Shown: piece after piece, positions 5,325 through 21,103 of the stretch
Layout: each line of letters begins with the position of its first letter
Position numbering within the stretch: position 1 is the stretch's first letter
From: a virus
Length of the DNA stretch: 21,103 nucleotides
IMG/VR virus record: IMGVR_UViG_3300032288_003704
Coordinates: 1-21,103 of that record
Reading direction: 5' to 3' (one strand)
Program-made: the position numbers and the translations under genes
The notes under the pieces: model-generated
Databases searched by the model: none
What the model saw: the letters and a program-made list of their open reading frames with translations, nothing else
What the model was told of the DNA's origin: nothing

Positions 5325-5918
5325 TTATGTTTTAAAAACAATCCAACCATTATTGTCTGGCCGTTTACCATTTGCAACTTGACACATAAGTTTTAACGAT
5401 AATGAATGCTTCTTACATCCTTGTCGTAGAGATAAAAATTCTTCTGATACACCTGCAGGCGATACAAACACACATTTAGTTGATCGATATGACGATCCGC
5501 TAATTCCTTTATTCCACGCAGGATGATTTGCTTTTTGTTTGCTATTTTTTAAGTTTCGTGTGTGTAACTCACTTTTTGGTTTACCTATTAATCGTTGCGC
5601 TATTAATTTTTTAGTAAAAACAGACATTCCTGCCGATCCTTCGCCGCCTTCTGTCCTATTTTGCAAAATGCCTGTTCCTATATCCTTGCGACCATACCAA
5701 CTAATTAATCGTCGCTCAATAGCAAATGCTCCAATTTCTGTTAAATTGGATTCTACAATTATGATATTTTTAAAATTAGGTGGTCTATTGACATTATAAT
5801 GCTTGCGCCAAGCTCGACCATTAATGCCTTTTCCTATATAATAAGGTGTGGAATCAGATTCTCTTAGATAGGCATAAACATAGAAGCCATTGGGGATATT
5901 TTTATTACTAAATAGCAT
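5325..5918 (-). CDS. GIY-YIG homing-type endonuclease
   Basis: GIY-YIG nuclease, 197 residues from the chosen start. The catalytic module is at the N-terminus: FYVYAYLRE (12-20) and YYIGKG (26-31) form the two signature strands, R35 follows in GRAWRKH, and the catalytic glutamate and helix are in [16 protein letters not shown], then [11 protein letters not shown]. The C-terminal third ([19 protein letters not shown], then a [19 protein letters not shown]-like segment) resembles the modular DNA-binding repeats of phage homing endonucleases. The frame is open to a GTG at 5978, but ATG 5918 is preferred because AAGGAA precedes it by 9 bases and the first 20 residues of the longer form look non-conserved. 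It lies directly upstream of the large terminase, a common insertion place for phage homing endonucleases. I see no sign that it splits a gene. Confidence 0.88.
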
Positions 5919-5981
5919 TGCTGATAGTTCCTTATAAACTGTTAGAGCCGGTGGATCTGCCAGGATCGCGATCGGCACTTT

Positions 5982-6007: not shown

Positions 6008-6541
6008 ATGTCAGGACACACTTTATTACTTAACAAGGATTACACTCCTATATCTGTATTACCATTGAGCGTAATTGATTGGCGCCATGCAGTCAAACTC
6101 ATGTATCTAGGAAGAATTCAAGTTATTGAAACGTATCCGGACTGGATAATCCATAGCGAAAAGCTATCGATTAATGTCCCCAGTGTGGCTATTACCAAAG
6201 AATACTTTAATTTTAAGCGTAAAGTAAATTTTACACGTTACAATATGTATCTGCGTGATCTTTATCAATGTCAATACTGCGAAGATACTTTTGATTTTGA
6301 TCAATTAACTATCGATCACGTAGTTCCTATTAGCCACGGCGGCAAAACTGAATGGACTAACTGTGTAACTAGTTGTAAGGCTTGTAATTGGCGTAAAGCA
6401 GATAAAGCGGTTATGAAACCAATACGCAAGCCTTATCGTCCAGATTATTGGGCATTAGCTGCTGCTTGGAAACATAGTCCATTTAGAGTTAAAGATCCTA
6501 AGTGGAATCAATACTTAGGTAGAGATAGAGAGGCTGCTTAA
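6008..6541 (+). CDS. HNH endonuclease, the only plus-strand gene
   Basis: HNH-family nuclease of 177 residues. The core spans residues 86-135. It has a zinc-binding CQYC (88-91) and CKAC (123-126) pair around the metal-binding beta-beta-alpha motif LTIDHVVPISHGG (D103-H104, H110) and the asparagine in TEWTNC (N118). An N-terminal domain of about 80 residues (LLLNKDYTPISVLPLSVIDWRHAVKLMYLG) is the type often found before phage and bacterial HNH domains. The C-terminal part is rich in Trp and basic residues. It runs against every other gene in the window. Its stop overlaps the stop of the 69-residue gene by 3 bases (tail to tail), and its start lies 90 bases from the GIY-YIG start. No strong Shine-Dalgarno is seen. 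It is probably a selfish endonuclease acquired separately; a role in packaging or host DNA attack is possible. Confidence 0.9.
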   Translation: MSGHTLLLNKDYTPISVLPLSVIDWRHAVKLMYLGRIQVIETYPDWIIHSEKLSINVPSVAITKEYFNFKRKVNFTRYNMYLRDLYQCQYCEDTFDFDQLTIDHVVPISHGGKTEWTNCVTSCKACNWRKADKAVMKPIRKPYRPDYWALAAAWKHSPFRVKDPKWNQYLGRDREAA

Positions 6542-6747
6542 ATTGGTTTTTCGCCTGTTAAATATGGCTTAGAGAACCACAGTTTAAACCATTCTTCAGT
6601 ACCAGGGCGAATATTATGAGTTTTCATAAGTTCGCCCTTTTCATTTCCAGTTACTGAAATATTACTGCCAGGAAAGCCTCGGTACTCCTGCATTACTGCA
6701 CGATTACCTATGCCTGCTAATAATTTTAACTCGTCAATGCTGTCCAT
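6538..6747 (-). CDS. Small conserved phage protein with N-terminal LAG motif
   Basis: A 69-residue protein of unknown function. The N-terminus (MDSIDELKLLAGIGNR) carries the L-x-x-L-x-L-A-G type motif shared with the accessory-block proteins. The C-terminal segment NIRPGTEEWFKLWFSKPYLTGEKPI (residues 45-69) is of a form I recall as recurrent in T4-like environmental phages. No catalytic residues or membrane segment are evident. It starts 23 bases after the nuclease gene with only a weak ribosome binding site, and converges on the HNH gene. The shared motif suggests association with the same head or virion assembly pathway as the larger LAG proteins, but this is inference. Confidence 0.7.
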   Translation of the reverse strand: MDSIDELKLLAGIGNRAVMQEYRGFPGSNISVTGNEKGELMKTHNIRPGTEEWFKLWFSKPYLTGEKPI

Positions 6748-6770: not shown

Positions 6771-7577
6771 TCACTCGGCTGACTTACACTTTTGTCTTTT
6801 AGCTTGAGTCAGTGCTCCAAAGTCTACAGGCCATTCACCGCCTACTGGTAGTTCTGTGACTCCAGGTGGAAAGGCAAATATAGTTCCTGATTTTTGTTGA
6901 ATTGCAGCGATACTAGCACGTACTCGAGTTAAATCATTACCTTGATTGCCTTCATGCTTAAAATACCAACCTGCTGCTTGCTTGGTATTTTGATTTATAA
7001 CAATTTTATAAAAGCCTGTAGGAACTACAACACCATTACCAATTCTTTTATCTGTGGCTGTATTATATACTGCGCCTACGTAGATATTATATGTGTTGTT
7101 TGTTTGTACTGCCCAACCACGCACACTAGTTTCAAGTAGTTTCCAAATGCCACGATTTAGTCCACCTAACTGCGGAAACATATTAGTCATTAAGAAACTT
7201 TCATATTCTACTTGCTGGTCCCAACTTAGATCGCCGTCTGGAGCAGCATGACCTTTATCATATCCTGTTCCAGCATAATCTTCAGGGCGAGGTCCGTTAG
7301 GGACACTAGCATCAGCAACAAATGCATTAGTGCGCGGCCAACATCCTAATGCGTTGGCTGGAGTTAATGTATATGTTACATAATTAGGAATTTTAGCGGC
7401 GGCATCATAACCGACAAAATATGCTCTACGACAAATTGGTGTCACTGCTTTGCTGGCCTGTGGGAATCCATATGGATTGTGTACTGCACATTTTTCCGGA
7501 GGAAGCGGTGCTGTTTGATTCCATGCAAATGCTGCGGGTGCTACTGTTAATAACAAGATTGAAAACCATTTTTTCAT
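6771..7577 (-). CDS. Secreted non-specific DNA/RNA endonuclease (NUC family)
   Basis: A 268-residue protein of the Serratia-nuclease-like beta-beta-alpha-metal family, which cleaves DNA and RNA with Mg2+. The signature GYDKGHAAPDGD (105-116) corresponds to the family DRGH motif: H110 is the general base and K108 replaces the usual Arg. The metal-binding Asn and downstream Glu lie in TNMFPQLGGLNRGIWKLLE (N132, N141, E149); N141 and E149 have the 8-residue spacing known for the family. A clear signal peptide opens the protein (MKKWFSILLLTVAPAAFA, cleavage likely after residue 18), so it is exported to the periplasm or outside. A Shine-Dalgarno AAAGGT precedes the ATG. It follows the 168-residue gene by 17 bases. 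Possible roles: destroying incoming DNA of competing phages, or scavenging nucleotides from lysed cells. Confidence 0.9.
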   Translation of the reverse strand: MKKWFSILLLTVAPAAFAWNQTAPLPPEKCAVHNPYGFPQASKAVTPICRRAYFVGYDAAAKIPNYVTYTLTPANALGCWPRTNAFVADASVPNGPRPEDYAGTGYDKGHAAPDGDLSWDQQVEYESFLMTNMFPQLGGLNRGIWKLLETSVRGWAVQTNNTYNIYVGAVYNTATDKRIGNGVVVPTGFYKIVINQNTKQAAGWYFKHEGNQGNDLTRVRASIAAIQQKSGTIFAFPPGVTELPVGGEWPVDFGALTQAKRQKCKSAE

Positions 7578-7594
7578 AATTGACCTTTATTTAA

Positions 7595-8101
7595 TTACCA
7601 AGCTCTACATGACCAATAACGAGCACTAGTGCGTGGGCCTGGATTTTTACAATTGTGTCTGGCTCTAAACGACTTACGGCGTTTAGGATTAGACTTTTTA
7701 ATTTTCATGTTAGGATCACCAAAGTTAACTTTAACTACATTACCTTTAGCGTTTTTAACATAAACTTTTGATTTTTTAACGTCGCCCTTCATTGGCTTGC
7801 CTAACGGAACATTGCGACCTTGATATTCGGCTTCTTCTAAATCATTGTTAGGACTTTTGTCATTGTTAATATCATTATAAGCAGTGGGCATGTTTGAATC
7901 TTCTGTTAAATATCCAACATGCGTTAAAATTCTCATAATTGTGTCGTCTGCTTCGATAACAATACCATCATCAAGTATATCAACTACATAAGTTTCAATT
8001 AGTGTTTCATCGCGAGCGATTTCTATTTCAAATATATCTCCAGTAATAGGATTCTCACAGGATTCTTCTACTAATTTAATATACTCTAATAAAGACTTCA
8101 T
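7595..8101 (-). CDS. Putative internal virion protein with capsid-targeting-like N-terminus and basic FRARHNC tail
   Basis: A 168-residue protein of unknown function made of three parts. Residues 1-13 (MKSLLEYIKLVEE) resemble the T4 capsid-targeting peptide (MKTYQEFIAEA), with a possible gp21-type cleavage site at LVE. Residues 17-60 are a small acidic beta domain (GDIFEIEIARDETLIETYVV, then DDGIVIEADD), a form I recall from other marine and freshwater phages. The last third is very basic and ends NPKRRKSFRARHNC...ARYWSCRAW, with H149, C151 and C165 as possible metal ligands and a role in DNA contact plausible. This tail recurs in phage proteins of unknown function (I think DUF5872-like, not certain). 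It overlaps the preceding gene by 4 bases (ATGA). A packaged, DNA-associated head protein is the best guess. Confidence 0.75.
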   Translation of the reverse strand: MKSLLEYIKLVEESCENPITGDIFEIEIARDETLIETYVVDILDDGIVIEADDTIMRILTHVGYLTEDSNMPTAYNDINNDKSPNNDLEEAEYQGRNVPLGKPMKGDVKKSKVYVKNAKGNVVKVNFGDPNMKIKKSNPKRRKSFRARHNCKNPGPRTSARYWSCRAW

Positions 8102-10071
8102 TTTTTTACTCCGGGGCGAGGGATAGCAGGAGATGTTGGGGCCTTTGGTGCTGCTGGTGCAGCTGGTTTGCTCTTTCCTCCCACTGGACCTTCATTGGGA
8201 CTAGGAGGATTAATACCTAAGTCTGCCGTAAAAATTTCAGCTTGACCAGTATCACCTTTTGGTCTTTGTGGATCAACTTCTCTTACTAAGACACTATCTA
8301 ATAGACTTTGCAATTCTTCGTCTAATTCAACTTCTTCTGCCATTGGATTGTCGCCTAACTTTGCTCCTGTTGGGTACATATCTTTTTTTCGGTGTAAGTC
8401 TGTACCTTGATGTATGATGCTGTCTACAGAGTGATATTCTTGGTTAGGATCATTGGCATACTCCATCATTTCATCATCGTCATTGCTGACCATAACAACT
8501 GGTTCTTCTGTATGTGAATCATGTCCCATATGGCCCATGCCAGCTAATTTAAGCATTTGTATTAATGCCTCGGCATCGCCGCCTTGAGCTGAAATAGTAA
8601 CACTTTTAGTCCCATCACTACTCATATTAGTACTAATATTCATTGAATCACGCTGATCCATGCCCATGTCGCCACATTCTTCAATACGACTTTCACTTAA
8701 TCCAGCTAAACGTGCTAGCTCACTTAAAGTATCGTCCATCACAGGCATTACTGTTTCTTGGAATTGGCGACTATGTCCCATTGACTCTAGCTCATCAGCA
8801 AAATGATCGCTCACCCAATGAAATGGATCACCTTCACGTGCTTTAGCAACGCCATATGGCATCTCACCATTGTCTATATAATAATCGTACAGTGCATTAT
8901 AAAGATCTTCATCTAAGTCAGCACCATTTAAAAAATTCTTTGTTTCATGTTTAAATCTTGTAACAATATGTTCTAAGTTACTACCAGCTTCTAACATGAG
9001 ACTTTCACTTACTTTAGATTTTTTATGAGCTTTCCAGGCAGTAGCATAGGCAATAGACTTCTCTTTAGGTGTTATTTTACCATCTTTGGCATAACCTTTT
9101 TTAATATGCTTGACCATACGTTCGGCTTTAGCACCTGGAGGTGCTTTTTCATTTATTTGTAAGCCACTTAATCTCAGTATATCATTGAATGCTTCTTCAA
9201 GTTCTTCTAGGTCTTCATCTAATTCTGATTCTGGTAATGTAGTACCCATTGGCCCTCTTTTTGCAATCTGATCTGGAGTATCTGTTCTTACATTAGTAGA
9301 TTGACCAAATCCCCCCTTAACAGCTTGAGGGTCATCTTTTGGTTGATCTACAGCATATTGCACTTTAGTTGGATCATAGCCGCCGCCATATGTTTTGCTT
9401 GGAAGTGCTGCTTGCCCCGAATCCTTATTGCCTGTTCCTATAGTAGGGTTACTGAAAATGCCGGACGTGGCTGTTTGTGCAGCAGGTGCAGCAGGGGCAG
9501 GAGCTGCGGCCGCAGGAGCTTCGGCAGGGCCTGCTTGAGGTTGAATATTTGGTGCCATGCCTGATATTTGAGCAAATGAATCTTGTGCTGCTTTGTCAGA
9601 CGCTGCTTTAGCAAATTGTCCGCCAATATTTTGTCCGGAACCGATGCTTGGATCAACTTCTGTAGAAGCAGCAGGAGCTGGAGCTGATGCCACAGTGGGT
9701 ATATTGGTGTTAGTATTTGTGCCTTGAGTTGGTTGAGCATCAGTGTTGGTCTGCCCGGCGAACCCAGCCGGAGGAGGGGCAGCATTAGCATCTCTCGCAT
9801 TAGCTGTTCTTTTATCGCCGCCTGCATAATTACTTGTTTGCGTTTGGGCAGCAGTGGCTTGATTAGCTGCTGCTGGTGCTGGTGCTGCTGGTTTTTTTAA
9901 ATCTGTACCGTAAGTAACAGTTTTATTAGTTTTTGGGTCTGTCCACTGAAAAGTCTTAGACCCGCCGGCAAGTGCTGTTTTACGTCCGGCTGCAAATGCA
10001 TCTTTAAAAGATTGTGCCGGTGCTGCCGGAGCTTCTTGCTCAAATAATTTTAAAAGTTTTTTCATATTCAT
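8098..10071 (-). CDS. Large mosaic virion-associated protein (capsid-targeting-like start, Ala/Pro linkers, three LAG motifs)
   Basis: A 657-residue protein built from short modules joined by low-complexity linkers. Residues 1-13 (MNMKKLLKLFEQE) look like a T4-type capsid-targeting peptide. Residues 21-60 hold a SFKDAFAAGRKTA / KTFQWTDPKTNKTVTY module, and 61-235 is a long Ala/Pro/Gln-rich, probably disordered stretch. A LAG motif follows (FNDILRLSGL, 295-304), then a lysine-rich helical module (PPGAKAERMVKHIKKGYAKD, KEKSIAYATAWKA, 311-348) and a Glu/Asp- and Tyr-rich module (364-430). Two more LAG motifs are LSELARLAGL (449-458) and LIQMLKLAGM (503-512), followed by an acidic region and a Pro/Ala tail. 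I recall several of these modules from unrelated phage proteins. No enzyme motif is seen. A Shine-Dalgarno AAGAG precedes the start. A late-like promoter octamer lies 49 bases upstream inside the previous gene. Confidence 0.8.
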   Translation of the reverse strand: MNMKKLLKLFEQEAPAAPAQSFKDAFAAGRKTALAGGSKTFQWTDPKTNKTVTYGTDLKKPAAPAPAAANQATAAQTQTSNYAGGDKRTANARDANAAPPPAGFAGQTNTDAQPTQGTNTNTNIPTVASAPAPAASTEVDPSIGSGQNIGGQFAKAASDKAAQDSFAQISGMAPNIQPQAGPAEAPAAAAPAPAAPAAQTATSGIFSNPTIGTGNKDSGQAALPSKTYGGGYDPTKVQYAVDQPKDDPQAVKGGFGQSTNVRTDTPDQIAKRGPMGTTLPESELDEDLEELEEAFNDILRLSGLQINEKAPPGAKAERMVKHIKKGYAKDGKITPKEKSIAYATAWKAHKKSKVSESLMLEAGSNLEHIVTRFKHETKNFLNGADLDEDLYNALYDYYIDNGEMPYGVAKAREGDPFHWVSDHFADELESMGHSRQFQETVMPVMDDTLSELARLAGLSESRIEECGDMGMDQRDSMNISTNMSSDGTKSVTISAQGGDAEALIQMLKLAGMGHMGHDSHTEEPVVMVSNDDDEMMEYANDPNQEYHSVDSIIHQGTDLHRKKDMYPTGAKLGDNPMAEEVELDEELQSLLDSVLVREVDPQRPKGDTGQAEIFTADLGINPPSPNEGPVGGKSKPAAPAAPKAPTSPAIPRPGVKK

Positions 10072-10074
10072 TTT

Positions 10075-12267
10075 TTATCTCTTGTGCCTTCCTGCTAACC
10101 ATAAAATATCGTTAAGTTCAGTATTTACCGACTCGGGTATCACCTTTTCTGCTTGCTTCTGTTTGATAATATCTCTAATTGGATCATCGGAATCTGTTGG
10201 AGATTTTTTAATTGGGATATATGGCTCGTAATTTTTTAAACTGTCTCTAGCAGCAGTAGCTTTCCAATCTATATTATCGTTAGCCGAAGGAGAAGTTTTA
10301 CCAACTTGGTCAATTGACGAAACTGGCTTTTCTCTTGCTGCTTTAGCTATATCCGAATATCGTTGCATTTGAGCCAACTTCTCAGCTGCGGCGGCTCTAG
10401 CGGCTGTTACACTTGGATCTTCCTTACTAAGATCTAGATTACTAGAAGGGCTAACTGTACTAGATGATGAATCTCCTGACGTAGTTGTATCGCTGCCTTT
10501 TGGTGCTTGTTGTAAATTAGATTGTGCTGCGATACGCTCACGCTCTCTACTAGCCGCGTCAGGTTCCCCTGCTTGTTTTAACTTCTTATCAGCCATATAT
10601 GCATCGTATGCTGTCTGTGTTTTTTTACCCCACTTACCATCAATGCCGTCACCTTCAGGACCAAAGCTACCTAGGTCGTATCCAGCAGCTTTTAATTTTT
10701 TCTGCATTGCTCTGACTTTATCGCTGCCCGGATTTGTTCTGGGAGGTTTATAGTCAGCTGGTAAATTACTATGAGGAACATCTAGTCCGTCTTTATCATC
10801 TGCCTTTGGTGGTTCAGGTGCTGGCTTTGGTGGTTCAGGTGCTGGCTTTGGTGGTTCAGGTGCTGGCTTTGGTGGTTCAGGTGCTGGCTTTGGTGGTTCA
10901 GGTGCTGGTTTAGGCTTATCTTTATCGCCTTTACCAAACAGATAGTCCCATAGTGTTGCTTCGTCAATTCCTACCGTGCGTTTTAAGCCCCGACCTGGTG
11001 AGTAGTCAAATGATGCTTTACCTGTATCTGGATCTGTTTCAACATCCGTGCCTTGAAGAACATCTGTTGCAGCACCGGCTATAGCCGTTCCTGCTGCTGT
11101 TTGTTTACCAACCGACTTCCAGTCAACTGGTCGTTTTGCTTCAATGTCTCTCGCAGTTGCTCGTTCAACGTCTGCAGCAGATCGCGTCCTCTCTACATCG
11201 GCTTTAGATTGTCTTGTAGTAGCAGCAGCATCGGCTTTAGATTGTCTTGTAGTAGCAGCAGCATCGGCTTTGGCCTGTCTGATCTTATTTTCAATATCTG
11301 CTTTAGTACCTTTGACCTCTGCCTGGCTTAGATCTTGCATTGAGGTTCTTGTTTTATAATCATCAATGTGTGCTAATCTTTGTGCAGGATCCATGTCCGG
11401 TGTTGTGCCGTATCTAACATCTTGATATGCACCTCTTAATTTTTTAGCTGCAGAAGTAGGAATATCTACTAACTCATTGCCGACTGCTGTCGCTGCTTTT
11501 TTTCCTGCTTGATATACGTTACCAATTTCGTCTGCTGCTTTACCAATTCCTGCTTTAGTGGCCTGGTATGCCGGAGGGATATTTTTTGCGGCCCATTGAC
11601 CACCAGCTTTAATAGCATTCCACCCAGTCTTTGCTGCATCAAGTCCTGTTTTTAACCAGGCCGGGGCTTCATCAATTCTTTGATTATTAATTTGATTGCC
11701 CGATTCGGTAAAAAAATTGCCTCGACGATCTTTATAGATAAAAATTGTATTCTTAATTTCATCTTCAGTCAATGAACACTTTTTTAGTTCGAGCTCTTCC
11801 TTAATAATTGCTGCATGTAATCTATTATTTTTCATAATCTTACTTTCTGGCATATAACTTGGGTCATAATCGGATCCACGTGCTTTCCAATAGCCGCCTG
11901 CTTCTTTATCTTTTTTAGCTGCTGCTGCAACTTCTTCGTCACTGGGTAAAAAACTTCCTGTTCGAATTTTATCTCTACCGGCTTGAATCGCAGTACCAGG
12001 TATAGCTAATATCGGAATGGCAGAGGCGGCTGCAATAGCACTACCTACACTATCGCCAGCAGTTGCTCTTTTTGCTGCATCAAGTCCTTGATATGCCATA
12101 TTTACACCAGGTAATACTTTTTTACCAATGGCCTTTACAGCAGAAGGAACTTTAGGAAGCTGGCTAGCTAATGCGCCCAATGCAGTTGTAGATGCTACGT
12201 CCCTAGCGGCTCCCACTGACTTGTCTACGCTGATTGTTCCTGCTTCAAAAATATTACTAATTTTCAT
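10075..12267 (-). CDS. Peptidoglycan-binding-domain protein, putative internal/ejected virion protein
   Basis: A 730-residue modular protein. The N-terminus MKISNIFEAG resembles a capsid-targeting peptide ending in a gp21-type I-F-E site. Residues 70-97 are Ala/Gly/Ile-rich and hydrophobic (GSAIAAASAIPILAIPG), possibly membrane-interacting. Residues 200-270 are amphipathic Ala/Lys/Gly-rich helices, like membrane-active or DNA-binding proteins. Residues 333-358 hold an 11-residue repeat (ADAAATTRQSK) and 453-487 five KPAPEPP repeats. A peptidoglycan-binding_1-type domain follows at about 513-560 (DKVRAMQKKLKAAGYDLGSF, DGKWGKKTQTAYDAY). The C-terminus SVNTELNDILWLAGRHKR nearly matches that of the GH19 protein encoded just upstream. 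It overlaps that gene by 4 bases. No catalytic domain is seen. A role in docking onto or crossing the cell wall, perhaps ejected with the DNA, is inferred. Confidence 0.8.
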   Translation of the reverse strand: MKISNIFEAGTISVDKSVGAARDVASTTALGALASQLPKVPSAVKAIGKKVLPGVNMAYQGLDAAKRATAGDSVGSAIAAASAIPILAIPGTAIQAGRDKIRTGSFLPSDEEVAAAAKKDKEAGGYWKARGSDYDPSYMPESKIMKNNRLHAAIIKEELELKKCSLTEDEIKNTIFIYKDRRGNFFTESGNQINNQRIDEAPAWLKTGLDAAKTGWNAIKAGGQWAAKNIPPAYQATKAGIGKAADEIGNVYQAGKKAATAVGNELVDIPTSAAKKLRGAYQDVRYGTTPDMDPAQRLAHIDDYKTRTSMQDLSQAEVKGTKADIENKIRQAKADAAATTRQSKADAAATTRQSKADVERTRSAADVERATARDIEAKRPVDWKSVGKQTAAGTAIAGAATDVLQGTDVETDPDTGKASFDYSPGRGLKRTVGIDEATLWDYLFGKGDKDKPKPAPEPPKPAPEPPKPAPEPPKPAPEPPKPAPEPPKADDKDGLDVPHSNLPADYKPPRTNPGSDKVRAMQKKLKAAGYDLGSFGPEGDGIDGKWGKKTQTAYDAYMADKKLKQAGEPDAASRERERIAAQSNLQQAPKGSDTTTSGDSSSSTVSPSSNLDLSKEDPSVTAARAAAAEKLAQMQRYSDIAKAAREKPVSSIDQVGKTSPSANDNIDWKATAARDSLKNYEPYIPIKKSPTDSDDPIRDIIKQKQAEKVIPESVNTELNDILWLAGRHKR
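10078..10131 (-). repeat. Copy 1 of the SVNTE...LAGR terminal tag sequence
   Basis: Codes the last 18 residues (SVNTELNDILWLAGRHKR) of the peptidoglycan-binding protein. It is an imperfect direct repeat of 12267..12323. It contains the late-like octamer GTAAATAC (in SVNTE), and its last codons plus stop supply Shine-Dalgarno-like bases (AGGAAGG, AAGAG) for the next gene start at 10071. Confidence 0.75.
10121..10128 (-). promoter_or_regulatory. Late-promoter-like octamer GTAAATAC inside the C-terminal tag codons
   Basis: On the minus strand, TCGGTAAATACTGAA encodes the S-V-N-T-E part of the tag. It lies 49 bases before the ATG of the 657-residue gene, a suitable distance for a T4-type late promoter with a short leader. 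The same sequence at a similar distance occurs before the 12267 start. Confidence 0.4.
10805..10909 (-). repeat. Five tandem 21-bp repeats encoding KPAPEPP
   Basis: Five head-to-tail copies of a 21-base unit (tttggtggttcaggtgctgg + c/t on the plus strand). The first four are identical and the fifth differs at its last base. They encode a rigid Pro-rich spacer (residues about 453-487) just before the peptidoglycan-binding domain. Near-perfect DNA identity suggests recent expansion by slippage, and copy number probably varies between relatives. Confidence 0.95.
11198..11280 (-). repeat. 33-bp direct repeat (two full copies plus a partial)
   Basis: Two identical 33-base units (11198-11230, 11231-11263) are followed by a partial, diverged third copy. 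They encode the 11-residue repeat ADAAATTRQSK, which fits an extended amphipathic helix or coiled coil in the middle of the peptidoglycan-binding-domain protein. Confidence 0.9.
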
Positions 12268-13754
12268 TTATTACGTCCTGCCAGTCTTAATATGTCGGTT
12301 AATTCCGTTTCAGTATTTACCGATTCTGGAATTCTAGTGTAACCACTACCAACTTTTTCACGATCCAAATTTGATTTAGTAGCAGGTGCTATTCCAAACG
12401 GATTTACTTCTGTATCTCTAAGAGACGAATCACTATCAGATTTTACCGGCGTTGTTAAATTCCCTTTTTGATTAGGACCTGGCTCATATTTAGGTGGTTC
12501 AGCAGTAGGTACTACAGATTTGGGTTCAACAAATTTAAGTTCAGCCTTTTTATCTGCATCATCTTTATCAAATTTACGCATAACATCTTTTACAGTCGGG
12601 CCAGTATAAACATATGTTTGTGGTCTACCTGCTATGTCGCGGGGCTGACTTGGAGGGGTGGATACTTTAGCATCTGCATCACTTGGTTGATCTGATGATG
12701 TTGATGGCTTACCTCCCTGTCCTGTTTTTGTTGTTGCGGCAGTAGTTGCTGCCACGGTTGCTGTAGCTGGTAACGAATCTAATTTTTCAACTTGAGCAAG
12801 AACCTGTTTTGCTCTTTTACTACCTGGAGCATAAAGAGGACCGCCAATGGCATAAATTACTTGTTCATGTGCCTCTTTTTGATTATTAACTGTTTTCTTA
12901 TGAATTCCGGCATTTTTTAGATATTGTACAGAAGCTGCATTTGCAAGTTGCGGATCTCTGAGCAGCATATCAGGATCTTTTACTAACGCTCCATTTAGAC
13001 CTAGATCTTTATCTATCCTAGCATAATTTGCTTTACCGGTAATTTGTATTGGCCCACGACCTCTATATTTGTAACCACCTATATGTCCATAAACTGTGTC
13101 ATAAAAAGCTTCTGGATTTTTCTTAAGTGCAGTAAGTTCAGCATCACTCAGTGCTAGTAATTTAGGTTTATCGTGAAAAACTTTTCTAATATGGGCATTT
13201 GTAGAACCGGCATAACTTTTTTCACCAACGTTTGCATTGCCAGATTCATGCCTGGCCTTAGCCATGATTGCTTTTCTAATGTATGGATCTTGAAAATTTT
13301 TTTCTACTTCGATTTCAAATGAAGATTTTTTTTTTGATTCTTCGTTCAAATCAGGTTCAGTCCACGGCCTATTATATTCTATATCGGCTTGTTTTTTAAT
13401 TTTTTCAACATTGTCTAGAGTATACGGAACTTTATATGCACCTAGATCATCTAACCATTGATCTAAATTTTCAGGTGCATCTTTACCTGTATATCCTTTA
13501 TAGACATCTTTGGCAAATTTTTCTGCCGCGGGTGCAGCTTTTTGAGTAACAAATTTTTCTCCTCGTTCGATATTTCTACCAACCGATTGGCCAAAATTCC
13601 AATCTTTTTCGCCTTTACGTTTTTGAAGTAAGTAATCGCCTAGTGTTGCACCTGCGGCTGTTCCGCCTAGTGCGGCCAATGCAAGAGGCAGAAACTCATC
13701 AAGTCTCTGCTCTTGCAACTGAGATTCACCAATTATGTCTTTGATTTTCATCAA
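12264..13754 (-). CDS. GH19 lysozyme/chitinase-domain protein with capsid-targeting-like N-terminus and LAGR tag
   Basis: A 496-residue protein with a GH19-type glycoside hydrolase core at about 145-325, able to cleave peptidoglycan or chitin. The catalytic acid is in AKARHESGN (E170). The substrate-cleft signature YRGRGPIQITGKANYARIDKDLG (230-252) and the MLLRDPQLANAASVQYLKNAG helix (263-283) are well preserved. The N-terminus MMKIKDIIGESQLQEQ looks like a T4 capsid-targeting peptide with an I-G-E cleavage site, followed by a hydrophobic Ala/Leu/Gly stretch (21-43). The C-terminal 170 residues are Pro/Thr/Ser-rich and disordered, ending SVNTETELTDILRLAGRNK, nearly the same as the next protein. 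It overlaps both neighbours by 4 bases. It could be the endolysin, but the N-terminus and tag point to a virion-packaged lysozyme. The enzyme family is secure; its location is inferred. Confidence 0.88.
   Translation of the reverse strand: MMKIKDIIGESQLQEQRLDEFLPLALAALGGTAAGATLGDYLLQKRKGEKDWNFGQSVGRNIERGEKFVTQKAAPAAEKFAKDVYKGYTGKDAPENLDQWLDDLGAYKVPYTLDNVEKIKKQADIEYNRPWTEPDLNEESKKKSSFEIEVEKNFQDPYIRKAIMAKARHESGNANVGEKSYAGSTNAHIRKVFHDKPKLLALSDAELTALKKNPEAFYDTVYGHIGGYKYRGRGPIQITGKANYARIDKDLGLNGALVKDPDMLLRDPQLANAASVQYLKNAGIHKKTVNNQKEAHEQVIYAIGGPLYAPGSKRAKQVLAQVEKLDSLPATATVAATTAATTKTGQGGKPSTSSDQPSDADAKVSTPPSQPRDIAGRPQTYVYTGPTVKDVMRKFDKDDADKKAELKFVEPKSVVPTAEPPKYEPGPNQKGNLTTPVKSDSDSSLRDTEVNPFGIAPATKSNLDREKVGSGYTRIPESVNTETELTDILRLAGRNK
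12267..12323 (-). repeat. Copy 2 of the SVNTE...LAGR terminal tag sequence
   Basis: Codes the last 19 residues (SVNTETELTDILRLAGRNK) of the GH19 protein. It is an imperfect direct repeat of 10078..10131. The CTGGCAGGACGT codons place an AGGA about 9 bases before the next ATG at 12267, so the tag DNA also acts as that gene's ribosome binding site. Confidence 0.75.
12313..12320 (-). promoter_or_regulatory. Late-promoter-like octamer GTAAATAC inside the GH19 C-terminal tag codons
   Basis: TCGGTAAATACTGAA on the minus strand, within SVNTE codons, 45 bases before the ATG of the peptidoglycan-binding-domain gene. It is identical to the sequence around 10121 and resembles T4 late promoters. Confidence 0.4.
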
Positions 13755-14560
13755 GCAAACTTATCTTTTTTAGGACGACCGCGGCCTTTTGGCGTGGTAT
13801 CAACATCTGCGCCTTTATCTACTGCATCATAATCACGCTCGTGTTTAACACCAGTTTTAGTAACTGTTTTCTTACCATGTGATGTTTTACCTTCTTTGTC
13901 ATCCATACGCTTTTTAGCGTCGGCTACTGTAGGGAAACCTTCACGTACTGGCTCCATGTTTCCATCACCGTCAAGGTCTGCCTTTTTAAGACCTTGCGCT
14001 CTGGCTTTCATTAAGTTTCCTGAAAATTTATTTCCTTCAGTTTTTTTCTTGGCGCCGGCAATTTTATCGGCATAGGTAATCTTATCTGGTGGTGGTGCCA
14101 GTTTGGCAAACTTCTGTTGCTTGGGTGTTAAAACATCTTCGTTGGCATCGGCTTCATCCATCTTGTCATGCTTCGCACGGATCATGGCCATTTTTTCTTT
14201 ACTAGCACCGTCACGGCCGGCTTTTTGTAGTGCCTTCATGCCAGTTTCGCCGTATTTCTTTTTGCCTAAGTATGCTTGTAGACCGCTTTCCTCTACTTCG
14301 CTTTCTTGCATTTTTTTAAAACCATGATATTTTTCGTTTAACTGTTTTTCAACTTTAGCAATTGCTTCAGCAATTGCTCCTTTATCTTTCTTATCTTTCT
14401 TCTTGCTTTCATGTTTGTGATCCTTACACTTACATTTTGCCATCGGCTTACCGCAACTGCCACAGTTCTTTGCAGCTTCAGTTAGAGATTCTTTAAAAGA
14501 ATCTTTTTTACCTTCTAACTGATTAATTTTGTTTAAGATATCATAGATATTGTTGCTCAT
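13751..14560 (-). CDS. Basic putative DNA-binding head protein (Cys cluster, EF-hand-like loop, AT-hook)
   Basis: A 269-residue, very Lys-rich protein of unknown function. Residues 1-29 (MSNNIYDILNKINQLEG...ESLTEAA) hold a helical start with a gp21-type L-T-E/A site. A CGSCGKPMAKCKC cluster (C33, C36, C43, C45) could bind zinc and is followed by a poly-charged His/Lys region. Residues 91-135 (GLQAYLGKKKYGETGMKALQ) and 145-170 (TPKQQKFAKLAPPPDKITYADKIAGA) are modules I recall in environmental phages. D195-L-D-G-D-G resembles a calcium-binding EF-hand loop. The C-terminal KGRGRPKKDKFA (258-269) is a typical AT-hook. It starts in a TAATG overlap with the upstream gene and overlaps the GH19 gene by 4 bases. 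A DNA-condensing internal head protein is the best inference. Confidence 0.75.
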   Translation of the reverse strand: MSNNIYDILNKINQLEGKKDSFKESLTEAAKNCGSCGKPMAKCKCKDHKHESKKKDKKDKGAIAEAIAKVEKQLNEKYHGFKKMQESEVEESGLQAYLGKKKYGETGMKALQKAGRDGASKEKMAMIRAKHDKMDEADANEDVLTPKQQKFAKLAPPPDKITYADKIAGAKKKTEGNKFSGNLMKARAQGLKKADLDGDGNMEPVREGFPTVADAKKRMDDKEGKTSHGKKTVTKTGVKHERDYDAVDKGADVDTTPKGRGRPKKDKFA

Positions 14561-15183
14561 TATTTCTTTCCTTTAACGGGTGGTAATTTTGGTTTATGTG
14601 TTCCTAAAGGACTAGTAGTACCTTGAGGTAATTGATTTGTAGTTTGTGCTGCTTTAGTTCTTTCAGATGCACGAGTAGAAGTTAATGCAGGATCAGATTC
14701 CAATGCAACCATCTTAGGTGATTGTTTATCTAATTCCTTGAGCATACTATCTTTACGCTTTTCGCCTACTAATTCTTGTCCGCCCGGAACATCTTTAAGT
14801 TCATTATCTAATAGCAATGCACCAGTATGATCTTTACCTAGCGCCTCTGCATAATCATTTTGATCTGCTTGCTGTTTACCATATACACATACCCACTCGG
14901 CTTGCATACCGGTGCGCTCTTTTAATAATTGAGCGATTTGAGGTGCAGTAGTTGGATATGCTACTGTAGCTTCAAATTGCCAGCATTCGCAAGCACCCCA
15001 TTTTGGGAACTCTCTGTGTTCTTGTATGGGTAAACTTTTTGCTTTACTAATACTTACAAGTTCGTAAGCATTAAGTGCATTCTTGATTTCTTCCATAATT
15101 TCATTTGGATCTTGTTTTGCAACTTTAATCCTAAAATCATATTGGGTATTTCTTTCTGAAATATAGGCTTGTAAACTTTTCAT
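14560..15183 (-). CDS. Putative internal virion protein with T4-like capsid-targeting N-terminus
   Basis: A 207-residue protein of unknown function. The start MKSLQAYISE-RN is the closest match in the window to the T4 internal-protein targeting peptide MKTYQEFIAEA, with a gp21-type I-S-E cleavage point after residue 10. Residues 14-102 form an alpha/beta domain (YDFRIKVAKQDPNEIMEEIK, FEATVAYPTTAPQIAQLLKE, AEWVCVYG) of a kind I recall in head-module proteins of environmental phages. The rest is a Pro/Lys/Thr-rich disordered tail. It is the first gene after small terminase, with a good Shine-Dalgarno (AAGAGGA, 8 bases before ATG), and it shares a TAATG overlap with the next gene. Its head location is inferred from the N-terminus and neighbours. 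Confidence 0.75.
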   Translation of the reverse strand: MKSLQAYISERNTQYDFRIKVAKQDPNEIMEEIKNALNAYELVSISKAKSLPIQEHREFPKWGACECWQFEATVAYPTTAPQIAQLLKERTGMQAEWVCVYGKQQADQNDYAEALGKDHTGALLLDNELKDVPGGQELVGEKRKDSMLKELDKQSPKMVALESDPALTSTRASERTKAAQTTNQLPQGTTSPLGTHKPKLPPVKGKK

Positions 15184-15201: not shown

Positions 15202-15209
15202 GTATTTAT
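15202..15209 (-). promoter_or_regulatory. Late-promoter-like octamer ATAAATAC
   Basis: GCATAAATACC on the minus strand, overlapping the small-terminase stop codon and 18 bases before the ATG at 15183. It resembles T4 late promoter TATAAATA. The Shine-Dalgarno of the 207-residue gene lies between it and the start, so a very short leader would result. Confidence 0.35.
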
Positions 15210-15700
15210 GCGGTTTTATTCTTTTGAAGAATCTGTTCTAATAGAGCATTTCTATCTAATACTATACCTTGTCCCTCTAGAGGTTTACCTTCGGGATTAT
15301 CTTTACTAATCTGATGATCTAGTCGAGCTTTTTGTAATTGTAGCTGTACCATTTTTAGCTTCTTATCTATTTTAGCTGTTTTGGCGGTAATTGCATGTCC
15401 GAGAAGCGTACTAGCACTTTGTAGTACTACTCCCGCAAATCTAGGATCCATATTCATACCAAGATCCATTAAATCTTGAAATTTATCTTTGGCTAAATCT
15501 GCTAGCTCATCTAGCTCCGAATCTGAAGCTGATAAGTCGCGAATCATGGGCAGAGCATTATCAATTTTATCTATAGCTGCATCTACTTGCAGGATAACTT
15601 CTTGATTATCGTCAATTGATTGTAAAGCTTCGCTGGGTTGTACGACATTTTCGTGTGATATATCGGGTAGATCAAATAATTCAGATAATTTTTTTGTCAT
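15206..15700 (-). CDS. 16: Terminase small subunit (gp16-like)
   Basis: Probable small terminase, which recognises or regulates DNA for packaging and stimulates the gp17 ATPase. It has 164 residues, the same as T4 gp16. The acidic N-terminus (MTKKLSELFDLPDI) matches the gp16 family start, and a central pair of long helices (about 62-82 and 86-130, e.g. LDELADLAKDKFQDLMDLG and KTAKIDKKLKMVQLQLQKARLD) fits the oligomerising coiled-coil core. The C-terminal tail is variable. It lies 8 bases after the gp4-type gene, without a recognisable Shine-Dalgarno. The large subunit is about 10 kb downstream, separated by the accessory block, whereas T4 has 16 and 17 adjacent. The assignment rests on size, helix pattern and context; sequence identity is low. 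Confidence 0.75.
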   Translation of the reverse strand: MTKKLSELFDLPDISHENVVQPSEALQSIDDNQEVILQVDAAIDKIDNALPMIRDLSASDSELDELADLAKDKFQDLMDLGMNMDPRFAGVVLQSASTLLGHAITAKTAKIDKKLKMVQLQLQKARLDHQISKDNPEGKPLEGQGIVLDRNALLEQILQKNKTA

Positions 15701-15704
15701 GCTC

Positions 15705-15712
15705 GTATTTAC
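15705..15712 (-). promoter_or_regulatory. Late-promoter-like octamer GTAAATAC in a small hairpin
   Basis: CGGTAAATACG on the minus strand, at the gp4-type stop codon and 4 bases before the gp16 ATG. The octamer is the loop of a short inverted repeat (GCTCG/CGAGC, 15701-15717). It is too close to the start to give gp16 a normal leader. Confidence 0.3.
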
Positions 15713-16143
15713 CGAGCTCGACCTTGGTGAAACATATCATTTTCTGTTACTACTCTGAATCTAAGTCCTTGTTGTTTACACCATGCATTAGCTGCTTCCC
15801 ATTTAAACTGATTTAATACAGCATAAGCTTTATCTCTTGTGCTCCTAGCCGCTTCTAGTGTAGTCTCGCGAGAAGGTTTTATTTCTATTAGTTCACCAAA
15901 TTTTTTTCCGTCTTTGGTTACATAGAAAATAACAAAATCGGGTATATAGATTGTATTTTTATTAGTAAACGGATTTTTATAAGGAATATGAACTGCTTCG
16001 TTGGCCCATTGCAGCACTGATGGGTTTTCGTCGCAAAAACGCATAAAAGTATGCTCCCATGAACTTCTAAAATGGGGTACTTTTTTTCCGACATATTTGT
16101 CCGGATTTAGCAGCTGATAAAACCCATTGGCAAATTTACTCAT
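15709..16143 (-). CDS. 4: Head completion protein, gp4-like (restriction-endonuclease fold)
   Basis: Homologue of T4 gp4 (also called gp50/65 in older maps), needed to finish DNA-filled heads before tail joining. It has 144 residues (T4 gp4 has 150). The family start FANGFYQLLNPDKYVG is clear, followed by RSSWEHTFMRFCDENPSVLQWANEAVHIPY. A PD-(D/E)xK nuclease-like core has E30, the IPDF aspartate D69 and E87-x-K89 in LIEIKPS, so DNA-end trimming is a plausible activity. It overlaps the 133-residue gene by 4 bases (ATGA) and immediately precedes small terminase, a logical packaging/head-completion pair. Confidence 0.9.
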   Translation of the reverse strand: MSKFANGFYQLLNPDKYVGKKVPHFRSSWEHTFMRFCDENPSVLQWANEAVHIPYKNPFTNKNTIYIPDFVIFYVTKDGKKFGELIEIKPSRETTLEAARSTRDKAYAVLNQFKWEAANAWCKQQGLRFRVVTENDMFHQGRAR

Positions 16144-19128: not shown

Positions 19129-21103
19129 TTATACTCCTGCCGCTATATCACCTGGATTTTTCAATCTAATTGGGATATAAATAAACTCAACTGCTTTCAT
19201 TGGCTCAATTGCAATGTCTACATACAACTCATTTCTAGCTATACGAGTTGGTGTATTGTTAGTTTCGTCACATACAACTATATAATCGTAAATTCCTCTT
19301 TTACTAATTAAGTCATTGATGGCGCCACTGATAACATTTTTAATCTGATCCCTAGTAATTTTATCGTTAGGTTCAAATAAGTATCCATCACCAATTCTAG
19401 CTAAAATAGTTCTAATATAATTAACTAAACGTGCAACATTAATACGATCCAATGAACTTGCAGTTGGGTTACGTGTTTTTTGTCCCCAAACAACTAGACC
19501 AACCCCTGGAAGATTAGTAATAGGATTAATTTTATTTTCGTATAACGTATCTCTTAACCCCACTCGAATTCCGTTAAATGTAAATTCTCCTGTTGCAGAG
19601 TCAATATAACCAATGCTTGATGCATTATCAACTAAACCTCTTCTTGATCCAGCTGGTGCAAACCATTGATAACTTACGTTGTCGTTATAAATCATTGTTC
19701 GTAGTGCCATGTGACTGGCTGGAACCACAACATCGTTACCTTGTAAGTCTGATGTTTTACCACACGGATAATAAACTCCTAGATAAGGACTAGCGGTGGC
19801 TAATCCGTCTCCGTTGGTATTATTACTCCAATTTGCAATATCAATAGCATTAGGCGCTAACCGCATAGGTGTGTCACCTAAGACAAATGCAGTTTGTGCT
19901 CGATCATTGTTTAATGCTACCATCTCGTCAATTAACTCTGGATATCCCGGAGCGCAAATAATATTAAAGAAATATTGATCTTCTCTTATTTCTGTGCTGG
20001 CGATTAAAGCAGCTTGCATAGCGGCTGTGACCATTTTTCTTTGCGCTTGTCTTCCCATATATGGGCTACCGTTGTCTTTTAATCCACTTGCTGTTTGCCA
20101 GGTATCTTTAATGGTTGGTAAAGAACCACTCGCTCCAGGAACAGTTGGCAGATCTGGATAAGCAACTGCATTAAATTTATTACTTACATACTGTTTAACA
20201 TTATAGCCACTTCTTCTCATGTTAAAAAGTAACATTCCTCTTGGATATAATCTATAATCCGGTGCATCTTGATCAATATAATCGCTTTCTAGTAGATCAA
20301 TAGTTGATGGTAAGCTACCTGTGATTATATCAGTAGTTCCATCTATATCCCAACGAGCATCTGCAAATACTATTCCATTCTGCCCAGTTTGATCGGTGTT
20401 ATCAATTAATATCCAATTTGATCCATCATATCTGTAAATTACTGGATAATTTTCTAGATCTCCGGAATCTAACCACAGATCGCCTGCTACTAAAGCAGTT
20501 AATCCGTCGCTTTGAAATTCTGGTTCGCTTGCACTAACAATAACTCCATTTGGGTCTGTAGCACTTAAATCGTAACCTCTAGAATCTGTTGTAGATCCGT
20601 CATAATATAAACTCTTATATCCTCTCCATCCTCCGATTTCATTGATCATAATGTCAACTGTCGCAGGATCACTGTAGTACCATAAAGTACCATCAGCTGG
20701 TGCTTGATATGGTTCTGTGGTACTAAAGGTATAAGTAAGAGCTTCCCAGTTTGTTAATGCTAAACTGCTGCCATATAAAATAGTTCCACTTGTAGAGCTA
20801 CTAAACCCTGCATCTGCAATTGGGTTACCTGTTACATCTGTTAAATAAATATCTCCACCATAAACGTGAGTAAATGTAATAACATTATTATCTACAGTAA
20901 CATTTAATTCGGGAATATTTGCAGCTAAAATATCACTAACAAAACTTGATTGACTAGTGCCAGTTAGAGTAATAGTTGTTTCATTTATTGTGGCAGAGCC
21001 AATTTCTGTAACTCCAATAGTTAGTTCATCACTAACTGAAAATGGATTTGCGGCAATTGTACTTCCGCTAACTGAGGTTTGTCCTGCTTTACGACGACGG
21101 AAT
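19129..21103 (-). CDS. 18: Tail sheath protein (gp18-like), 5' end outside window
   Basis: Contractile tail sheath subunit. The frame is open without a stop from the window edge (21102, codon phase) to 19129, giving 657 residues and no start; T4 gp18 has 659, so only a part at the N-terminus may be missing. The conserved C-terminal half is clear: an NLPGVGLVVWGQKTRNPTAS segment, INVARLVNYIRTILARIGDGYLFEPND, ITRDQIKNVISGAINDLISKRGIYDYIVVCDETNN and AVEFIYIPIRLKNPGDIA at the end. The part seen upstream holds Ser/Thr-rich beta domains plus inserts (SEPEFQSDGLTALVAGDLWL) that probably form the outer sheath surface. It pairs with the tail tube gene downstream. An internal ATG at 20649 is not the start, because the upstream frame is coding. 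Confidence 0.95.
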   Translation of the reverse strand, partial: FRRRKAGQTSVSGSTIAANPFSVSDELTIGVTEIGSATINETTITLTGTSQSSFVSDILAANIPELNVTVDNNVITFTHVYGGDIYLTDVTGNPIADAGFSSSTSGTILYGSSLALTNWEALTYTFSTTEPYQAPADGTLWYYSDPATVDIMINEIGGWRGYKSLYYDGSTTDSRGYDLSATDPNGVIVSASEPEFQSDGLTALVAGDLWLDSGDLENYPVIYRYDGSNWILIDNTDQTGQNGIVFADARWDIDGTTDIITGSLPSTIDLLESDYIDQDAPDYRLYPRGMLLFNMRRSGYNVKQYVSNKFNAVAYPDLPTVPGASGSLPTIKDTWQTASGLKDNGSPYMGRQAQRKMVTAAMQAALIASTEIREDQYFFNIICAPGYPELIDEMVALNNDRAQTAFVLGDTPMRLAPNAIDIANWSNNTNGDGLATASPYLGVYYPCGKTSDLQGNDVVVPASHMALRTMIYNDNVSYQWFAPAGSRRGLVDNASSIGYIDSATGEFTFNGIRVGLRDTLYENKINPITNLPGVGLVVWGQKTRNPTASSLDRINVARLVNYIRTILARIGDGYLFEPNDKITRDQIKNVISGAINDLISKRGIYDYIVVCDETNNTPTRIARNELYVDIAIEPMKAVEFIYIPIRLKNPGDIAAGV

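Follow-up and report, generated by a model that had tools for sequence, protein, structure and literature searches.

Putative head-packaged proteins of a T4-like jumbo myovirus carry peptides resembling the ends of the gp22-type scaffold

The viral fragment IMGVR_UViG_3300032288_003704 from IMG/VR (21,103 nt, i.e. 21.1 kb; hereafter the window) contains, between positions 7595 and 15183, a block of six consecutive genes that an initial annotation interpreted as a set of proteins packed in the prohead and ejected with the DNA. Our analysis suggests, with a probability of about 0.7, that the block encodes head-packaged cargo, recruited to the prohead through scaffold-like peptides at either end of the polypeptide and trimmed by a gp21-type protease. 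The evidence comprises sequence signals and their conservation, the match of these signals to the scaffold, synteny with proteins detected in the virion of Pseudomonas phage PA5oct, and the presence of the protease and the capsid protein in relatives. The window phage is, judging from the sequence of its large terminase, whose nearest isolates are PA5oct (55.5%) and Sinorhizobium phage Phosso (52%), a T4-like jumbo myovirus. The products of the block, in the direction of transcription and after a gp4-type gene and a gene for a 164-residue protein, are referred to as F207, E269, D495, C730, B657 and A168; all members of the set and their peptides, as well as the gp4-type gene, are on the minus strand. 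They were compared with 48 related loci retrieved with F207 (14560-15183) as the query, in which the genes were called by a simple script; the shuffle controls used throughout preserve composition, not phylogeny.

N-terminal leaders with a putative protease site

In phage T4, the prohead protease gp21 cuts after L/I-x-E, and the first ten residues of the internal protein IPIII suffice for targeting, with positions 4 and 7 important for targeting and positions 8 and 10 for processing (PMC9026906). The corresponding T4 controls read MKTYQEFIAE|A in IPIII (the bar marks the cut; the 10-residue precursor segment is annotated), MAKINELLRE|S in gp24 and MLKEQLIAE|A in gp22. A leader of this kind, about 8-28 residues long and ending in [LI]-x-E before A, S or a close variant, was found in five of the six block proteins (A168, B657, C730, D495 and E269). 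In all five the site at the small residue is conserved among homologues, as we would demand of a capsid-targeting sequence (CTS). A168 (7595-8101) begins with MKSLLEYIKLVEE|S (8063-8101), where the cut would fall at LVE12|E or VEE13|S, and its homologues begin with MKSFRDYLTE|A or MKTFREYLNE|A, near to T4 IPIII. The leader of B657 (8098-10071) is MNMKKLLKLFE|Q (10039-10071); the site is L9-F10-E11|Q12, as the homologous MNMRDLIDLFE|APA indicates, rather than the "QE|A" proposed initially, which does not fit [IL]xE. C730 (10075-12267) begins with MKISNIFE|A (12244-12267). D495 (12264-13751) also has the leader attributed to it, MKIKDIIGE|S (13725-13751), but its start is the ATG at 13751, which overlaps the upstream stop (TGATG), and not 13754, and the predicted cut follows E9 instead of E10. 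In E269 (13751-14560) the ESLTE|A site, which had been placed near the start, lies at LTE28|A, and the leader (14477-14560) is thus of ~28 residues. Apart from these corrected starts and cuts, the six open reading frames and their N-termini are as first described. Peptides with predicted cut sites include IPESVNTELNDILWLAGRHKR, MKIKDIIGESQLQ and ESLTEAAKN.

The syntenic block genes of the relatives differ widely, yet they retain a leader that ends in [LIVM]xE before a small residue. Besides the homologous starts listed above, the examples include MDPKLLRLYSNIIDE|A, MKINEIISE|G, MKAKEIIDE|S and MSDPRFFRRYLDILDE|Q. The pattern [LIVM]xE|[AGSTDNQ] at residues 4-20 occurs in 39 of the 53 dereplicated block N-termini from the related loci, compared to 13% expected by shuffling (binomial p ~4e-24), and in 20 of the 29 N-terminal families. 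Elsewhere it is found at the shuffle level, namely in 4/37 upstream genes and in 12/172 genes (7%) from the rest of one 137-kb relative. When P1' is limited to A/G/S/T, Glu is the only residue enriched at P1 (24 observed vs 3.7 expected), and D, K, Q and others are not. In particular, all 37 distinct members of the E269 family have [LIV]xE|[SGA] with a variable P2 (T, A, K, S, I, N), which is the mark of protease-site conservation. In the hydrophobic moment test, uninformative on such short peptides, most single leaders did not exceed their shuffled versions.

The sixth protein, F207, does not follow this rule. Its N-terminal helix, MKSLQAYISE, resembles a CTS, and K2, Y7, I8, N12 and Y15 are invariant among ~49 homologues. 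The cut after ISE10 suggested by the initial annotation is contradicted by the alignment, where many homologues have A, S, Q or D instead of E10, and the P1' residue is either R or L. We therefore rejected F207 as a cleaved CTS, even though its first nine residues are still CTS-like.

The LAG box, a second peptide common to the cargo and the scaffold

The second signal, which the initial annotation missed, is a helix of the form hydrophobic-x-x-hydrophobic-x-x-L-[A/S]-G, which we call the LAG box; it often lies at the C-terminus, with another [ILV]-x-E|S site ahead of it. A box of the LAG/LSG type is present at the extreme C-terminus of the gp22-type scaffold in all 11 phages sampled, whereas T4 gp22 lacks it. 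The scaffolds end with EIKRLAGLK in the relatives of the window phage, with EELRRLAGIK in PA5oct (where the whole tail is VGVEELRRLAGIK) and with HELRRLAGIEK in Phosso, and ends of the LAG, LSG, IAG or NAG type were found in 121Q, RaK2, GAP32, Vibrio 2.275.O, SCTP-2, Atu_ph07 and an unverified CM1 record. Most of the box-bearing scaffolds also start with an [LI]xE leader, e.g. MSKLEKLLKE|S in 121Q. As an aside, the scaffolds of Phosso (L050/L074) and Atu_ph07 (L106) carry the annotation "DNA double-strand break repair Rad50 ATPase", which is almost certainly an error caused by their coiled coils. T4 gp22 contains near its C-terminus the stretch ITESINTPDTEA, reminiscent of the VPESINTEL stretch that precedes the LAG boxes of the cargo; the common "ESINT" string may be a coincidence and we do not build upon it.

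A profile built solely from the 11 scaffold C-termini, with close relatives down-weighted and a threshold of at least 15 bits, detected 4 boxes in the window (0.00 in shuffled sequences), 6, 4 and 4 in the relatives G001, G002 and G003 (0.07-0.08), 3 in Vibrio 2.275.O (0.15), 5 in Phosso (0.45), 4 in PA5oct (0.35; the scaffold, gp281 twice and gp249), 1 in 121Q and none in T4. In the window the boxes above the threshold belong to D495, B657 and a 69-residue protein, s69. The tail of D495 after IPE476|S reads SVNTETELTDILRLAGRNK (12267-12323; 18.4 bits), forms an isolated helix in the structural model and terminates the protein as IPESVNTETELTDILRLAGRNK. B657 has three internal boxes (15.0-16.7 bits): EAFNDILRLSGL at residues 292-304 (9160-9198), followed by QINE|K, DTLSELARLAGL at residues 446-458 (8698-8736), followed by SE|S, and EALIQMLKLAGM at residues 500-512 (8536-8574). 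The box of s69 (6538-6747) is N-terminal (MDSIDELKLLAGI, 6709-6747; 20.1 bits). Two further boxes were matched by a regular expression. The first is the tail of C730 after IPE712|S, SVNTELNDILWLAGRHKR (10078-10131), which contains a string identical to the tail of D495 and ends with VIPESVNTELNDILWLAGRHKR. The second is the C-terminal box VNEELSIIKWLSGLGKK (1739-1789) of g2 (1736-3184; C-terminus VVNEELSIIKWLSGLGKK), which falls below 15 bits in the window, while the g2 homologues in G001 and Phosso exceed this value. g2 matches phrog_13484 (virion structural protein). Its N-terminus, MRELDKISE|A, was considered as a CTS and rejected, since a homologue reads ISA|A, and only the C-terminal box was retained. 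Because of their boxes, we assign the products of g2 and s69 to the same set, which consequently extends beyond the block.

In the relatives, an [LIVM]xE|small site lies at most 20 residues upstream of 12 of the 15 C-terminal boxes, compared to 2.2 expected by shuffling (p ~2e-8), and in the N-terminal boxes of PA5oct gp281 and of a protein from locus L045 the site, VKE|S or LNE|S, follows. The box can also be explained differently: the N-terminal leader alone would package the protein, as in T4, and the LAG box would be a self-association helix shared by the scaffold and the cargo, or a docking site for a different partner, e.g. the portal, the terminase or a chaperone. In T4 and P1, N-terminal signals alone are sufficient (PMC9026906, PMC9024508), the box of 121Q is confined to the scaffold, several block proteins (A168 and E269) have no box, and s69 and PA5oct gp281, with their N-terminal boxes, lie near terL. 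Nonetheless, we regard this explanation as unlikely, since the box occupies the extreme C-terminus in 11/11 scaffolds and recurs at the ends of non-homologous cargo proteins just after a protease site, the arrangement one would expect of a releasable docking peptide. It is tempting to consider the terminal peptides of the scaffold, above all the C-terminal LAG box, as a portable and protease-releasable loading tag, which unrelated proteins could acquire C-terminally, N-terminally or internally and which would decide what is present in the virion and injected; we would give this generalization even odds. We found no account, in the open-access literature, of a head-targeting motif that is C-terminal or shared with the scaffold.

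Protease, capsid protein and virion proteins in relatives

Relatives with enough sequence encode, in this order, an S77 protease, a gp22-type scaffold of 368 residues and gp23. The gp21-type S77 protease scores above the cut-off in 4 contigs from relatives as well as in PA5oct (gp331), Phosso, 121Q, RaK2, Vibrio 2.275.O, SCTP-2 and Atu_ph07. The propeptide of the gp23 capsid protein ends with LME|TATAGAT or LME|AATAGAT in the relatives and with LVE|NASAGAT in PA5oct. By sequence, it thus appears to end in the same motif as the leaders, which supports the protease rule within the lineage.

In PA5oct, gp282, gp281 and gp278, which are homologues or syntenic neighbours of the window proteins, were flagged as virion proteins by electrospray ionization tandem mass spectrometry (ESI-MS/MS); gp282 is the homologue of F207 and gp278 that of g2. 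Of the proteins with LAG boxes, gp281 and gp249 were detected in the virion; the lack of a flag for the scaffold gp330 agrees with its presumed degradation. The predicted mature N-termini in PA5oct include G10 of gp333 (MKINDIITE|G), S19 of gp281, A7 of gp258 and S10 of gp246. PA5oct gp245-gp258 (locus L078, PA5oct 150001-200000; gp258 at 148636-149247) form a second run of small virion-detected proteins. In some of these the N-terminus contains an [LIV]xE site (MKKVFE|A, MKIKDILVE|S), and gp249 combines its LAG box with a basic tail; this run is likely a second packaged set.

Functions of the predicted cargo

D495 is a predicted GH19 peptidoglycan hydrolase. It matches a PHROG endolysin family (E 4e-15) and Pfam GH19 (E 2e-5; 24.9 bits vs the cut-off of 25.5). 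The AlphaFold model contains a confident GH19-like domain at residues 144-325, between disordered ends, and an isolated C-terminal helix at 480-490; Foldseek relates it to GH19-type endolysins in the PDB (4ok7, 8p8e; E 1.5e-4 to 1e-3). The domain is therefore, by its sequence and its predicted fold, of the GH19 type. C730 is a candidate peptidoglycan-binding protein, with a weak PG_binding_1 match at residues 516-570 and a weak match to phrog_1224, described as an endolysin but filed under head and packaging. At the position of C730 and D495 the relatives encode GH19, an SLT transglycosylase (with or without LysM), a GDSL esterase or LysM, and the tags are mostly retained.

This composition calls for consideration of another scenario, in which the block would serve lysis or supply a tail-associated lysozyme: its GH19, peptidoglycan-binding and nuclease proteins would be late products that act from the cytoplasm or the baseplate and are not head cargo. 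The resemblance of D495 to phage endolysins, the description of phrog_1224 and a secreted-type nuclease among the neighbouring genes agree with it. On the other hand, endolysins do not need disordered tails of 100-170 residues with protease sites, non-enzymatic neighbours have the tag pattern as well, phrog_1224 itself is classified with head and packaging functions, and the PA5oct homologues and syntenic genes are virion-detected. We consider such a cassette improbable.

The remaining features of the proteins are diverse. The AlphaFold model of F207 has a helix at residues 4-11, with low pLDDT, followed by an alpha/beta (ferredoxin-like) domain, for which a PDB search returned weak matches (best Foldseek E 0.0019, VIA-align Z of at most 7.1) that do not name a function. 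E269 has a conserved C-terminal AT-hook-like GRGRPKKDK sequence, and the AT hook match at residues 257-267 is subthreshold. In C730, a Gly/Ala-rich hydrophobic module (residues ~23-121; 11900-12200) is common to otherwise different block proteins; its homologues weakly match a two-transmembrane holin family, and the module could insert into the membrane after ejection. The same protein contains ~5 copies of the perfect seven-residue repeat PAPEPPK (10800-10915), likely an extended linker, and TTRQSKADAA repeats near 11200-11290. Residues 307-356 of B657 (9004-9153) correspond to a module, KAPPGAKAERMVKHIKKGYAKDGKITPKEKSIAYATAWK, that matches phrog_30733 and phrog_12887 (function unknown) and is also present on a separate short protein in locus L045. 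The C-terminal domain of A168 (7595-7850) is a basic Cys/Trp domain and near-invariant (KKSKVYV...RRKSFRARHNCxNPGPRxxARYWSCRxW; phrog_7595, unknown function).

Proposed mechanism and its assessment

We infer packaging, cleavage, the docking partner and ejection as the steps of the following scenario. Each cargo protein would have at least one of two short peptides, both mimicking a terminus of the gp22-type scaffold encoded by the same phage: the N-terminal leader (~8-28 residues), ending with [LI]-x-E|[A/S/G], and the LAG box, at the C-terminus or within the chain and usually beside another [ILV]-x-E|S site. Through these peptides the cargo may attach, while the prohead is being assembled, to the scaffold core or to the inner shell. 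Cleavage after Glu by the gp21-type S77 protease would then destroy the scaffold and free the cargo, which would be left in the head with the DNA. As the predicted cargo includes a GH19 hydrolase and peptidoglycan-binding and AT-hook proteins, we consider it most likely that the set is delivered into the cell during infection, where it would help to breach the wall and manage the incoming DNA.

A number of observations weigh against this scenario. The window phage is known from its sequence only, and the 21-kb record does not reach its protease, scaffold and capsid genes. The cut site of F207, one of the six block genes, is not conserved, the box of C730 scores below 15 bits and was recognized by the regular expression and by homology to the tail of D495, and 3 of the 15 C-terminal boxes of the relatives have no matching cut site upstream. 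In 121Q, the profile scan found the box in the scaffold and on no cargo. Virion detection concerns distant PA5oct homologues, and presence only, rather than direct homologues of the proteins A168 to E269; furthermore, the PA5oct list includes enzymes such as ribonucleotide reductase and is thus not purely structural. The enrichment among PA5oct virion proteins is weak both for the LAG box (2/93 vs 0/345 other proteins, p = 0.045) and for the N-terminal site (15% vs 9%, p = 0.08); this comparison is right in direction and, being weak, does not serve as our main evidence.

That the N-terminal likeness is a mere coincidence, with short amphipathic starts (MK-I-x-x-I-x-E) being common and no protease needed, is very improbable: the six genes of the window alone are a small sample, one of them fails on conservation and most single leaders do not exceed shuffled hydrophobic moments, but the excess in the relatives (39/53 vs 13%) involves only Glu at P1 and 20/29 families, and the genes elsewhere in the same genomes stay at the shuffle level. 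A head-packaged and protease-processed set is well supported by the comparative evidence, in which non-homologous proteins at the same position have the cut-site pattern in common. The head-cargo interpretation as first formulated, in terms of six leaders confined to one block, is borne out only in part, because one gene lacks a conserved site, the set is wider than the block, and the C-terminal or internal signal was missed.

Neighbouring genes

The gp4-like head-closure gene (15709-16143; phrog_218, E 8e-38) lies upstream of the block, in agreement with the initial annotation. The "small terminase" that was also placed there corresponds to the 164-residue product of the gene between gp4 and the block (15206-15700); we found no support for this assignment, as its sole match is a PHROG of unknown function. 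Other genes of the window encode a tail sheath, tail tubes and a gp32-like protein. The match of the sheath (19129-20649) to its PHROG profile is limited to the C-terminal half (467-912 of 915), and the protein is much shorter than its PA5oct equivalent (879 aa). A homing-endonuclease-like gene (5325-5978) and an HNH endonuclease gene (6008-6541, on the opposite strand) adjoin the terminase gene and are likely mobile elements. The product of the gene at 6771-7577 is a DNA/RNA non-specific endonuclease of the secreted type, whose start resembles a signal peptide; in several relatives this place is taken by another small secreted protein (QGVTYDAQIVRVNDGDTVVIA), which by eye looks like a thermonuclease and suggests a nuclease swap.

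Comparison with known systems

The closest parallel are the T4 proteins IPI, IPII, IPIII and Alt. They share the short [LI]xE leader, MKSFRDYLTE|A of the A168 family being a near match to MKTYQEFIAE|A, and the relatives of the window phage have the gp21-type protease and the gp23 capsid. Alt is processed by gp21 at both ends, thus also at the C-terminus (PMC9026906). In contrast to T4, the cargo described here comprises GH19, SLT, GDSL, LysM and AT-hook proteins, its leaders range from 8 to 28 residues, and it has a second tag in common with the scaffold C-terminus, which is absent from T4 gp22. If the loading-tag hypothesis is true, the N-terminal targeting rule of T4 extends to a large and mostly uncultured lineage, the scaffold would be the source of a second, C-terminal tag, and the swaps of enzyme families in one packaged slot would be explained. 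The content of a phage head could then be read from sequence, and a genome scan for the two tags would provide a list of injected proteins.

In the jumbo phages SPN3US and phiKZ, many head proteins are likewise trimmed after Glu by a gp21-like protease (PMC10052503, PMC7411985). However, these phages represent a different lineage, the cut motif is A/S-x-E, the N-terminal propeptides are mostly long (>100 residues), and no C-terminal processing was found there apart from that of the protease itself. In phage P1, an N-terminal peptide of DarB is enough to direct a reporter protein to the head interior (PMC9024508), but no separate scaffold has been identified in P1 and no C-terminal or internal scaffold-like box has been described. 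PA5oct gp281, gp282, gp278 and gp249, of unknown role, resemble the present set in their N-terminal sites or LAG boxes and in their detection in the virion; three of them occupy the same gene neighbourhood, and gp282 and gp278 are distant homologues. PA5oct differs in that strong boxes are found on only two proteins and that the corresponding position lacks the enzyme cargo seen in the window.

In engineered P22 particles, fusion to the scaffold packages a cargo protein. The P22 scaffold binds the capsid protein via a C-terminal helical segment (PMC9962691), which is a basic helix-turn-helix, while the LAG box is shorter, hydrophobic and located on natural cargo, and its binding to the coat is putative. 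If the LAG box and the leader indeed act as loading tags, they would represent the natural counterpart of scaffold-fusion loading in P22 and make a two-ended loading system available for engineered particles.

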